DNA of 36,674 nucleotides, taken from Bordetella hinzii LMG 13501 (GTDB lineage Bacteria; Pseudomonadota; Gammaproteobacteria; Burkholderiales; Burkholderiaceae_B). The stretch covers positions 1 to 36,674 of the forward strand of contig NZ_LRUJ01000044.1 of the NCBI RefSeq assembly GCF_001548475.1. Direction: 5' to 3'. Each line of letters begins with the position of its first letter. Positions within the stretch are counted from its first letter, which is position 1. The notes under the pieces were generated by a model. The model made no database searches, had not been told where the DNA came from, and saw nothing but the letters and a program-made list of their open reading frames with translations. Positions 9,482 to 13,242 of the stretch are shown piece by piece. A program made the position numbers and the translations under genes.

Positions 9482-10831
9482 TCATTCGTCGAACAAGGCC
9501 ATCTGGCCCGCCTGGCGCGCGGCTTCGCTGGCGCTTGCCCGCGCCCGGCGGGCCGCCGGCGCCGGTGGCACAAAGCGATCGATAGCCAACTCCGGCCGCC
9601 ACCCGGCCAGGCCCAGATTGCGGGCGGCCACCTGAAAGCGCTGCCGCAACAGATCGGCCCAGATGCCTGTGCCGCGCATGCGGGTGTCGAAACTGCTGTC
9701 GTTGCGTTTGCCGCCCCGCATATCCTCGATGCGATGCAGCACGCGCTGCGCCCGGTCAGGGAAATGCGTATGCAGCCAGGTTTCAAAGACTTCTTTCACT
9801 TCCCAGGGCAGGCGCACGACCGTGTAGCTGGCCGAACAGGCGCCCGCGCCGGCGGCCGCCTCGAGAATCTGCTCCATGGACTCGTCATTGATGAAGGGGA
9901 TGACAGGCGCCACCAGCACACCCACGGGCACACCGGCCTCGGCCAGCTTGCGCACCGTCTCGACCCGGCGCCAGGGCGCCGACGCCCGGGGCTCCAGCGT
10001 GCGCGCCATGTCGGCATCCAGCGTGGTGATGCTGATGAAGACCGTGACCAGGCGCTCTCGCGCCAGCGTGGTCAGCAGGTCCAGGTCGCGCTCGACCAGG
10101 GAATTCTTGGTGACCAGGGTCAGGGGATGGCCTGTCTCGACCATGAGCTCGAGCAGGCCGCGTGTCAGCCGCCAGGTACGCTCGATGGGCTGGTAGACAT
10201 CCGTGGCCGAGCCGATATTGATGGGTGACACCTTGTAGCCCGGCCGTGCGAGCTCGGCCCGCAGCGCCTGGACCGCGTTGGCCTTGGCGACCAGCCGGGT
10301 CTCGAAATCCAGGCCGGGCGAATAGCCCAGGTAGGCATGGGTGGGCCGGGCGTAGCAATAGACGCAGCCGTGCTCGCAGCCCCGATAGGGATTGACGGCG
10401 ACATCGAAGGGGATGTCGGGGGAATCGTTGCGCGACAGCAGCTTGCGTGCCTGCTCGGGCTTGACCGTGGTGCGGGGCGCGGCCACCACGGGGATGTAGC
10501 GCTGGGTGGCCGCCGGGGGCAGGCCCACCGCTTCGGGCGAGGCACCGGCCGGCAGGGCGGCCGCGGAGACGGCGGAATGCGCATCCTCCCCGCCCTCCGG
10601 GTCGTCCGAGGCCGGCAGGCGCCGGGGCTCGTCCTGGATGTCATCGAGGGACACATCGAAGGCGGCAGGCGCGTCATGATCGCCGCCAAACCAGCCATCG
10701 TCGAAAGCCTCACGCTCGGTTTGCTCGAAGCGGTGGCGAACATTAGTAACCGCACCCCGACCGCGCGAGGCGGCGGGGGCGGCAGCCGGGGACCCAAAAC
10801 CGGCGGAAAGCGAATGTTCGGTGCTCATCAT
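9482..10831 (-). CDS. PA0069-family radical SAM protein, SOS-regulated
   Basis: The product is 449 residues. The radical SAM cluster motif CxxxCxxC is at Cys152, Cys156 and Cys159 (YRGCEHGCVYCYARP). The N-terminus carries the RGRGA signature (23-27) seen in the PA0069 group, then a low-complexity stretch of about 80 residues. The group is related to spore photoproduct lyase, a DNA repair enzyme, which suits the SOS control seen here, but its own substrate is not known. Later motifs include INIGSATDVYQPIE and TLVTKNSLVERDLDLL. Two adjacent ATGs, 10831 and 10828, are possible starts; no Shine-Dalgarno sequence exists because the promoter lies directly upstream. A GTG at 10852 inside the LexA box is rejected. 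Confidence 0.92.
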   Translation of the reverse strand: MMSTEHSLSAGFGSPAAAPAASRGRGAVTNVRHRFEQTEREAFDDGWFGGDHDAPAAFDVSLDDIQDEPRRLPASDDPEGGEDAHSAVSAAALPAGASPEAVGLPPAATQRYIPVVAAPRTTVKPEQARKLLSRNDSPDIPFDVAVNPYRGCEHGCVYCYARPTHAYLGYSPGLDFETRLVAKANAVQALRAELARPGYKVSPINIGSATDVYQPIERTWRLTRGLLELMVETGHPLTLVTKNSLVERDLDLLTTLARERLVTVFISITTLDADMARTLEPRASAPWRRVETVRKLAEAGVPVGVLVAPVIPFINDESMEQILEAAAGAGACSASYTVVRLPWEVKEVFETWLHTHFPDRAQRVLHRIEDMRGGKRNDSSFDTRMRGTGIWADLLRQRFQVAARNLGLAGWRPELAIDRFVPPAPAARRARASASEAARQAGQMALFDE

Positions 10832-10833
10832 GG

Positions 10834-10866
10834 AAGTACTGTACAAAAACACAGTACTTTTGACAA
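10834..10866 (-). promoter_or_regulatory. LexA (SOS) box overlapping a sigma-70 promoter
   Basis: CTGT (10839-10842), eight AT-rich bases and ACAG (10851-10854) match the LexA consensus CTGT-N8-ACAG exactly. The symmetry extends to perfect 9-bp arms, 10834-10842 and 10851-10859. On the minus strand, -35 TTGTCA (complement of 10861-10866, five of six matches) and -10 TACAGT (complement of 10838-10843) are 17 bases apart, so LexA bound here would cover the spacer and -10. The start of transcription should fall near 10831, at the ATG itself. Confidence 0.88.
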
Positions 10867-11015
10867 GCCCCTAAGTCCCTGGGAGGACCACGTTTCGACT
10901 GTACCGCAACTCCCGCCGGGCGTGCGCGGAATTCATTCCACGACTTGGAAAACGCCTGGAAACCCGCGCCAGACAAGGGTTTGGACGAAAAACAACAAGG
11001 TTTCCAGGGCCTGCG

Positions 11016-12320
11016 TCAGCGTCGGATGAGCATGCCGGCCGCGGCCGTCTGGTGGGTGGCGGCATCGATCAGGATGAAGGCGCCCGTGGCCGGCACATCG
11101 CGATAATCATCGACCGCCAGCGACTCGCGCGTGATGAAGGACACCCGCCCGATGTCGTTCATCTCGAGCTTGTCCTGCGCCTCGCTCACCTCCTGCAGCT
11201 CGTGGATGTCGCGCCGCGTATGCACGGCGCGTATCTTGGCCGACGTCAGCCGCGTGCCCTGCTTGAGCAGATACTTGCGCGCCGGGTTCAAGGGCTGGTT
11301 GTCGAGCCAGCAGACTTCGGCCTCGAACTCGCGCGCCACCGCGGCCGGCGCGGCGGCATGCGTGATGATGTCGCCGCGCGAGACATCGACGTCGCGGTCC
11401 AGGACCACGGTGATGGACTCGCCGCTCACGGCGCGGGGCACGTCGCGGTCGAACACCCGCAGCGCGGCCACGCGCGCGGTCACGCCCGAAGGCTGCACCA
11501 GGATCTCATCGCCCACGGACAAGGCGCCGCTGGCCACGCGGCCCGCGTAGCCGCGGAAATCCTCGGCGCGGTCGCCGTCATGGCGCATGACCCACTGCAC
11601 CGGGAAACGCAAGGGCAGCGCCGAGCCGTCATCGCCCTGCTCCAGGCTTTCCAGCAGGCCGAGCAACGGCTGGCCGTCATACCAGGGCGTGCGCGGCGAA
11701 GCATGCACGACATTGTCGCCATTGAGCGCCGACAGCGGCAGGATGTGGAAGTCCGGCAGGCCCAGCTTGCCCGCCAGGTCGCGGTACGACGCGGCGATGC
11801 GCTCGAACACGGCCGGATCCCAGTCCACCAGGTCCATCTTGTTGACGGCCACCACGATATGGCGGATGCCCAGCAGCCGCGCGATGGTGCTGTGCCGCTT
11901 GGTCTGCGGCAGCAGCTTGCCATCGGCCGCCCGGGTCGCGTCGATCAGGATGATGGCCGCATCGGCCGTGGATGCGCCCGTCACCATATTGCGCGTGTAC
12001 TGCTCATGGCCGGGCGCATCGGCCACGATGAATTTGCGCGACGGGGTGGCGAAGTAACGGTAGGCCACATCGATCGTGATGCCCTGCTCGCGCTCGGCCT
12101 CCAGGCCGTCGGTCAGGAGGGAAAGGTCGATGCCGTCGCCGGCCACGCGCTTGTGCTTGGCGCGGGCGATCGCATCGAGCTGGTCGGCGAACACGCCCTT
12201 GCTGTCATAGAGCAGGCGGCCGATGAGGGTCGACTTGCCGTCGTCCACCGAGCCGGCGGTGATCAGGCGCAGCACACCGCGATCGGCGCCCGACAGGAAA
12301 GAATCGTTCAGTGCATTCAT
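11016..12320 (-). CDS. cysN: Sulfate adenylyltransferase subunit 1 (GTPase)
   Basis: CysN hydrolyses GTP to drive formation of APS from sulfate and ATP by CysD. The product is 434 residues with an EF-Tu-like G domain: GSVDDGKS at 23-30, DAPGH at 101-105 and NKMD at 160-163. Two beta-barrel domains follow. The length shows that there is no C-terminal CysC (APS kinase) domain, unlike the NodQ/CysNC fusions. It is the last gene of the sulfate operon, starting 13 bases after the cysD stop. No obvious intrinsic terminator follows in the 184 bases before the radical SAM gene. Confidence 0.97.
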   Translation of the reverse strand: MNALNDSFLSGADRGVLRLITAGSVDDGKSTLIGRLLYDSKGVFADQLDAIARAKHKRVAGDGIDLSLLTDGLEAEREQGITIDVAYRYFATPSRKFIVADAPGHEQYTRNMVTGASTADAAIILIDATRAADGKLLPQTKRHSTIARLLGIRHIVVAVNKMDLVDWDPAVFERIAASYRDLAGKLGLPDFHILPLSALNGDNVVHASPRTPWYDGQPLLGLLESLEQGDDGSALPLRFPVQWVMRHDGDRAEDFRGYAGRVASGALSVGDEILVQPSGVTARVAALRVFDRDVPRAVSGESITVVLDRDVDVSRGDIITHAAAPAAVAREFEAEVCWLDNQPLNPARKYLLKQGTRLTSAKIRAVHTRRDIHELQEVSEAQDKLEMNDIGRVSFITRESLAVDDYRDVPATGAFILIDAATHQTAAAGMLIRR

Positions 12321-12333
12321 GATGTCATCCGGT

Positions 12334-13242
12334 TCAGAAATAGCCTTCGCGCTTGCGCCGCTCCATCGACGCCTCCGAGGTCTGGTCGTCCATGCGGGTG
12401 GCGCCGCGCTCGGTGATGTCGGTCACCGCCGTCTCGGCGATGATGGCCAGCGGGTCCGCGGCTTCTGAAGCGACCGGGCAGGTGCAGGAAATGTCGCCCA
12501 CGGTGCGAAAGCGCACGGCCAGCGTCTCGACCGTCTCGTCCTCGGCCGGCGGCGTCAGGCGCGTGACCGGCACCAGCAGGCCACGGCGGCGCACGACCTC
12601 GCGCCGGTGGCTGTAGTAGATCGATGGCAAGGCCAGGTTTTCGCGATGGATGTATTGCCAGACGTCCAGTTCGGTCCAGTTCGAGATCGGAAAGACCCGG
12701 ATGTTCTCGCCCGGATGCACGCGCGTATTGAACAGATTCCAGAGCTCGGGACGCTGGGCCTTGGGATCCCACTGGCCGAATTCGTCCCGGAACGAAAAAA
12801 TGCGCTCCTTGGCGCGCGCCTTCTCCTCGTCGCGGCGCGCGCCGCCTATGCAGGCGTCGAAGCCGAACTCTTCGATGGCTTCCAGCAGGGTGACGGCCTG
12901 GGCCGCATTGCGTGAATCCGTGGCGCGGCGCAGCACCACGCTGCCGCGCGCGATGGAGTCCTCGACGCTGCGCACGATCAGCTGCTCGCCCAGCTGGGCG
13001 GCGCGGGCATCGCGAAAGGCAATGACTTCATCGAAGTTATGCCCGGTATCGATATGCATCAGAGGAAAGGGAAAGCGTCCCGGCCGAAAGGCCTTTTCCG
13101 CCAGCCGCAGCAACACCACGGAATCCTTGCCGCCGGAAAACAGCAGCACCGGCTTGGCGCACTCGGCGGCCACCTCGCGCAGGATAAAAATGGCCTCGGA
13201 TTCCAGCCAATCCAGATGGCTGCGTTGGGCAACTAAAGACAT
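12334..13242 (-). CDS. cysD: Sulfate adenylyltransferase subunit 2
   Basis: CysD is the catalytic subunit of ATP sulfurylase, forming APS and pyrophosphate. The product is 302 residues, the family length. The PP-loop SGGKDS is at 36-41, followed by HIDTGHNFDEVI. The C-terminus ERRKREGYF is the usual ending of CysD. It lies between cysH and cysN with 13-base gaps on each side, which indicates cotranscription and a stable CysD-CysN pair. Confidence 0.97.
   Translation of the reverse strand: MSLVAQRSHLDWLESEAIFILREVAAECAKPVLLFSGGKDSVVLLRLAEKAFRPGRFPFPLMHIDTGHNFDEVIAFRDARAAQLGEQLIVRSVEDSIARGSVVLRRATDSRNAAQAVTLLEAIEEFGFDACIGGARRDEEKARAKERIFSFRDEFGQWDPKAQRPELWNLFNTRVHPGENIRVFPISNWTELDVWQYIHRENLALPSIYYSHRREVVRRRGLLVPVTRLTPPAEDETVETLAVRFRTVGDISCTCPVASEAADPLAIIAETAVTDITERGATRMDDQTSEASMERRKREGYF

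Follow-up and report, generated by a model that had tools for sequence, protein, structure and literature searches.

The radical SAM gene on the minus strand at 9482..10831 (stop included) of the window, by which we mean the whole 36,674-nucleotide stretch of Bordetella hinzii LMG 13501 DNA that was analyzed, has a LexA-type operator lying almost against its start codon. This raises the question of whether it is an SOS gene whose transcript begins at the start codon itself. Its 449-aa product belongs to the PA0069 family, scoring 461.4 bits against the NCBIfam model NF033668 (curated cut-off of 360) and 59.3 bits against PF04055 (cut-off of 29.5). The CX3CX2C radical SAM cluster motif is present as CEHGCVYC (residues 152 to 159; 10355..10378, minus strand), and its three cysteines, C152, C156, and C159, are invariant in 45 aligned homologs. 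PA0069 itself is said to be under LexA control in Pseudomonas aeruginosa; a literature search for such control returned no report.

The operator, of the form CTGT-N8-ACAG, occupies 10839..10854 on the minus strand and is the core of a perfect 26-nt palindrome with 9-bp arms, AAGTACTGT GTTTTTGT ACAGTACTT (10859 to 10834, minus strand). It is the single occurrence of this pattern in the window (mean of 0.31 in shuffled sequences, 28 of 100 of which have one or more). Across the 5.0-Mb genome, the pattern is found at 23 places versus 14 for a reversed-pattern control, and the exact extended form, TACTGT-N8-ACAGTA, occurs at just two, namely, at the radical SAM gene and beside an imuA-like gene. 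The palindrome occupies most of the spacer of a promoter with the −35 hexamer TTGTCA (10861..10866, minus strand) and the −10 hexamer TACAGT (10838..10843, minus strand), the latter being made up of the right arm of the LexA box and the next base. This TTGTCA-17-TACAGT arrangement is the sole sigma-70-type match within 9800 to 12500 (mean of 0.3 in shuffles). Since a LexA box brings its own TACAGT, the operator by itself accounts for the −10 match, and what is informative about the promoter is the −35 hexamer together with the fixed distance to the start. The TTG of the −35 hexamer is 94 to 99% conserved over 99 upstream rows, 3 of which (L060, L072, and L082) come from outside the GTDB family of the window. 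As a separate observation, the left half-site reads CTGG instead of CTGT, with the arms otherwise largely kept, at L020, L027, L029 to L035, L037, and L045, as well as at L126, L127, L132, L145, L217, and L235; LexA at these loci may tolerate or even prefer CTGG.

Read along the minus strand, the elements follow in the order TTGTCAAAAG, TACTGTGTTTTTGTACAGT, ACTTCC, ATGATGAGC. Between the last base of the −10 hexamer, 10838, and the ATG at 10831 lie six bases (ACTTCC), so that the standard +1 position is the A of that ATG; both the sigma-70 spacing and the promoter model thus place the predicted transcription start on the first base of the start codon (10831..10831, minus strand). An mRNA starting there would be leaderless and would have to be initiated without a Shine-Dalgarno sequence. 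The best duplex with the anti-Shine-Dalgarno sequence in the 20 nt upstream has an energy of +0.7 kcal/mol. The first-pass annotation had described the perfect box with 9-bp arms, the promoter that it overlaps in the spacer and the −10 hexamer (10866 to 10838, minus strand), and the missing Shine-Dalgarno sequence, and all three are found as described; its prediction of a transcription start on the first ATG is favored by the spacing. On these grounds, we regard the leaderless state of this mRNA as strongly indicated.

A second in-frame ATG adjoins the first (ATGATG), and by reading, no further in-frame ATG, GTG, or TTG occurs from that second ATG to the conserved GRG motif. The TTG directly before GRG was rejected as a start, being replaced by TCG or ATA in other sequences. 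The longest open reading frame call starts at a GTG within the box (10852), which is absent from relatives with CTGG-type boxes. The distance of 7 nt from box to start is also short for this genome: six other strongly boxed genes have gaps of 19, 44, 52, 143, 134, and 34 nt, and we take these, from their translated starts, to be, respectively, imuA-like, lexA, DUF72-like, uvrA, recA, and dinB-like genes. The genome would therewith have its own lexA and recA, both boxed.

All 268 genomes of the GTDB family of the window were searched, and the 5′ regions of all carriers of the gene were read; the counts that follow are phylogenetically dependent. The PA0069-type gene is found in 119 of the genomes, and every one of these 119 has a box in which no more than one of the eight fixed positions is mismatched. 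The same box-to-ATG spacing in related genomes had been named in the first-pass annotation as something to look for, and a gap of 7 or 8 nt is indeed found in 88 of the 119 (7 nt in 37 and 8 nt in 51), which lends support to the leaderless reading put forward there. The remainder comprises 29 genomes with gaps of 12 to 23 nt and 2 ambiguous loci that were counted apart from the clear short-gap genomes, L140 (TTG at 2 and GTG at 8) and L232 (5/8, with GTG at 8). The sequence of the gap varies (e.g., TACTTCC, TAGTTTTT, TATTAGC, and TACTCGA), and in five loci (L138, L139, and L141 to L143) GTG takes the place of ATG at the same gap. Short gaps occur in the genera coded g1, g4, g6, g9, g10, g12, g16, g34, and g43, with g4 contributing 43 of 90 genomes when the two ambiguous ones are included; among named relatives, Bordetella, Achromobacter, and Pigmentiphaga are included, and Candidimonas has a gap of 17.

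The two gap classes also differ in their predicted leaders and Shine-Dalgarno sequences. An SD-like anti-Shine-Dalgarno energy of −4.5 kcal/mol or lower is seen in 20 of the 29 long-gap loci of the family and in none of the short-gap family loci compared with them. Weak energies, from −2.2 to −4.0 kcal/mol, are seen at ten short-gap loci, nine of which have a GGA in the center of the box, by reading far upstream. The promoter model, a simple one with a hand-written matrix, predicts a leader of 0 nt in 33 and of 1 nt in 27 of the 60 distinct short-gap upstream regions with enough flank, versus 20 to 31 nt in 21 of 28 distinct long-gap ones; with a gap of 8 nt, the model taken strictly sets +1 one base ahead of the ATG. 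In a quick protein tree of 81 family and 18 other rows, to be read with its arbitrary root and a long-branch warning in mind, 52 short-gap family rows form one clade (SH-aLRT of 100), and 28 of the 29 long-gap rows form another. Of the 52, 51 carried the short label, and the last, G176, proved on later reading to have a gap of 7. Across all tree rows, the label switches between short and long six times. The only long-gap row within the short-gap genera, L146 (G135) of g43, groups with Comamonadaceae-type rows, and its homolog was thus probably acquired from outside, likely by horizontal replacement.

Homologs beyond the family suggest that the two properties, LexA control and leaderlessness, have different histories. 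The CTGT-N8-ACAG box is perfect in 29 of 80 loci from named genomes; a further 12 have one mismatch and a usable start, 1 is boxed with no start found, and 38 are devoid of a CTGT-type box, including all 12 from Alphaproteobacteria. The gene scores over the cut-off in 205 of 397 evenly drawn genomes of the phylum. From these, 109 upstream regions were read, being the 30 best matches plus 79 picked among the matches listed, mostly one per genus; 106 were usable (L272, L280, and L282 were dropped), with doubtful starts in several f98 loci. An alpha-type LexA box, GTTC-N7-GTTC or its complement, is present within 250 nt in 69 of 78 loci from other classes versus 0.7% in shuffles. Together with the box present throughout the family, this supports the LexA control claimed in the first-pass annotation. 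We infer that LexA binds at the operator in the window and that the gene is induced by DNA damage.

In the same other-class set, 22 of 77 loci have a TANNNT hexamer ending exactly 6 nt short of an in-frame ATG, compared with a mean of 1.19 and a maximum of 4 at spacings of 8 to 44; spacing 1 is also occupied, in 9 of 77. With one locus per genus, spacing 6 accounts for 13 of 57 (mean of 1.0 and maximum of 3 elsewhere), and it is found in 1 of 51 neighboring open reading frames. When any in-frame ATG is counted, 10 of 21 named gammaproteobacterial loci (other spacings at most 2) and 5 of 11 named alphaproteobacterial loci have the hexamer at spacing 6. The peak is not clear in the same-class set, where 4 of 22 equals the maximum of 4 elsewhere, and spacing 6 is found in 0 of 4 loci of the same-order set; f55 loci are leadered by reading, and most other-class loci are not leaderless by a strict test. 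For 12 distinct short-gap loci from outside the family, the predicted leader is 0 in 4 and ranges from −5 to 19 in the other 8; three of four loci with a gap of 1 (L064, L072, and L089) have the hexamer TATATT, again with a leader of 0. As the spacing signal is seen in some sets and absent from others, the leaderless state would be recurrent rather than universal, and LexA control looks both older and wider.

Taking these findings together, we propose that LexA, bound to an operator that makes up the spacer and −10 hexamer, would repress the only recognizable promoter of this PA0069-family gene. Upon DNA damage and cleavage of LexA, RNA polymerase would start at the A of the start codon or one base before it, and translation would be initiated in the absence of a Shine-Dalgarno sequence by direct recognition of the 5′-terminal AUG (GUG in some relatives). 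We consider it very likely, judging from the sequences compared, that the gene is repressed by LexA and transcribed from its start codon into a leaderless mRNA free of a Shine-Dalgarno sequence, and it is from the conserved spacing that we infer the 5′ end of the RNA and its leaderless initiation.

A different possibility is that the gene is under LexA control and still has a leader, transcription starting upstream of or within the box or reading through from cysN, with an ATG recognized independently of a Shine-Dalgarno sequence (e.g., in an S1- or A/U-dependent manner). The genomic setting would permit this: the neighboring cysN (11016..12320, minus strand), 184 nt upstream in the same orientation, is a possible source of read-through, no terminator-like site is found within 9800 to 12500, and cysN is directly upstream in 34 of 38 loci with enough flank that share a constrained coding block described below, versus 1 of 40 other loci of an 81-genome set, an association that is confounded by descent. 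Yet there is no second promoter match in the same interval, and a leader fails to explain why the gap stays at 7 to 8 nt while its sequence and the start codon change. Moreover, any RNA running through the palindrome, such as cysN read-through RNA, could form from it (10834 to 10859) a 9-bp hairpin that ends two bases short of the AUG, which might keep read-through RNA untranslated. We therefore hold a leadered transcript to be unlikely. Less probable still, to the point of being hardly credible, is that the 7- to 8-nt gap is a legacy of common descent that serves no function. The short-gap rows of the family do form one clade on the tree, but within it the bases of the gap vary and the start codon switches to GTG, and even so the gap is only ever 7 or 8, two ambiguous loci aside; furthermore, the same −10-to-ATG spacing is seen again in other classes, where the operators differ. 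As an observation on the intergenic region itself, an inverted repeat with no T run, CCTGGAAACC ... GGTTTCCAGG, was noticed by eye between cysN and the promoter (10955 to 11008, minus strand).

Parts of the proposed arrangement have precedents. A radical SAM protein is named in the LexA regulon of Gram-positive bacteria and Balneolaeota (PMC7739468), such that the SOS aspect as such is no novelty; the portions of that paper that were available leave the radical SAM family unspecified and hold nothing on leaders. In Mycobacterium tuberculosis, transcription and translation of lexA are reported to start at the same place (PMC2897130). As proposed for the radical SAM gene, this is an SOS gene with coincident starts; it differs in being the repressor gene itself, in an actinobacterium, with experimental support, and the available part of the report gives no operator-to-start spacing across genera. 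Within Burkholderiales, leaderless transcripts with a promoter motif directly upstream have been described for Burkholderia cenocepacia (PMC4603805) and Cupriavidus metallidurans (PMC7563307), in the latter with an enrichment in replication, recombination, and repair genes. These are genome surveys; the terms LexA and radical SAM are absent from the available text of the former, as are SOS and LexA from that of the latter. Escherichia coli tisB and symE likewise combine LexA/SOS control with control at the RNA level (PMC7708055 and PMC1891008), but as far as the accessible parts of these papers go, they do so via a standby site on a structured mRNA in the first case and a small RNA encoded in cis in the second, and not via a leaderless enzyme mRNA.

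The NF033668 family model is silent on regulation. Many of the homologs in that family likewise have LexA-type boxes upstream, and in the clade of the window, the operator abuts the start codon with no leader predicted. A literature search for a leaderless mRNA of the PA0069 family found none, which is no proof of its absence in print. The surveys compared here identify leaderless mRNAs for individual genes, by RNA mapping; what we describe is a regulated gene family in which the leaderless state is predicted for a whole clade and other members within the same bacterial family are leadered, so that the switch and its effect on SOS output would be directly comparable. A repressor operator, a promoter, and a start codon are here tied into one short element. 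If Shine-Dalgarno-dependent initiation is indeed bypassed, expression after DNA damage would respond differently to the state of the ribosome or of the initiation factors. Leaderless mRNAs are resistant to kasugamycin.

Downstream of the start codon, the gene has a block in which synonymous sites are constrained (10742..10807, minus strand). Over 11 sequences from across genera, synonymous identity is 0.907 in codons 9 to 30, and none of 329 other windows exceeds 0.654; conservation is higher in the block at the amino acid level, too, with 77% of the columns invariant versus 48%. In 44 short-gap-clade loci with GGGTCCCCGGC in the 5′ coding part (41 distinct coding sequences), 15-codon windows starting at codons 1 to 16 have a synonymous identity of 0.90 to 0.95, which falls to 0.79, 0.73, and 0.63 at subsequent starts and then lies at 0.33 to 0.67 from codon 36. 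The block is found in 82 loci of the 99-row upstream set, in which a few genomes are counted under two handles, and is absent from the members of g12, g34, and g43 that were read. A search of 250 evenly drawn genomes of the order recovered four family members at about 95 bits and five others at 22 to 29 bits, near the threshold. The genome has one full copy, the next best match being 21 nt long, which rules out a repeated or mobile element; nor is the block a known RNA, as the window has no Rfam match at gathering, and two matches nearby lie far below it (E values of 0.4 and 3). We claim, as a new finding, that codons 9 to 30 carry a hidden constraint at the nucleotide level.

What this constraint serves poses a concrete and testable question. 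A structured RNA element at the 5′ end of the mRNA is a possibility that we hold to be somewhat less likely than not. The predicted fold has a tentative 14-bp hairpin with two bulges (10749..10783, minus strand) and a tentative 5-bp hairpin with a 10-nt loop (10785..10804, minus strand), perhaps closed by a long-range helix. Variable columns make up 3 of the 38 paired versus 10 of the 19 unpaired positions of this two-hairpin fold (Fisher p = 0.0003), a contrast that weakens to p = 0.057 for third codon positions alone. Pairing of the outer arms is stronger within than between sequences (−7.17 versus −6.22 kcal/mol; permutation p = 0.0004), a result that, with 30 distinct arm pairs and no correction for phylogeny, is suggestive only. 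Against such an element, pair counting finds no pair with changes in both partners, and its observed values are all reached in each of 500 shuffles; relative to synonymous-codon draws, all 12 sequences have positive z scores (0.25 to 2.38), i.e., they are no more stable than the draws; the dinucleotide-shuffle z score is only −1.6; and GGGTCC, which belongs to the loop of the first hairpin, does not vary either. In view of the missing compensatory pairs and the lack of extra fold stability, our claim is limited to constraint at the nucleotide level. Dual coding through an overlapping reading frame is a far more remote prospect: in 35 of 36 rows, a stop is present in frame +2 (TAA at the end of the block in the consensus), and the conservation of one antisense frame is close to that of the coding frame (5 of 21 versus 6 of 22 residues variable; 12 silent and 10 altering site changes versus 11 and 11), but none of the alternative frames stays open throughout the 36 rows, the conserved antisense frame having a stop in 3, and dual coding was rejected since each such frame is interrupted in some row. 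More broadly, and with considerably more reserve than for the leaderless mRNA in itself, one may imagine that PA0069-family genes fuse an SOS operator to the start codon such that the enzyme is made only from leaderless mRNA, giving an alternative route of initiation under stress, and that in the Bordetella-Achromobacter group the first 30 codons act on this leaderless mRNA as a cis element for translation, stability, or the rejection of read-through from the cys operon.

As for the protein itself, a role in relation to DNA damage is suggested by the regulation alone. It has a weak profile likeness to spore photoproduct lyase in the radical SAM core, and its scores (21.8 bits versus a cut-off of 400 for TIGR04070 and 22 versus 27 for PF20903) exclude membership, as does that for the Rv2578c family (NF038135; 222.2 versus a cut-off of 430). 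A search by sequence for a solved relative gave only SkfB, at an E value of 0.031, and was not taken further as a match; assignment to a defense system was discarded, there being no PADLOC match at an E value of 0.01. Three Bordetella-type homologs (L018, L027, and L028) are enlarged by long additional segments that separate the GRG motif from the radical SAM core, with open frames of 557, 777, and 875 aa.
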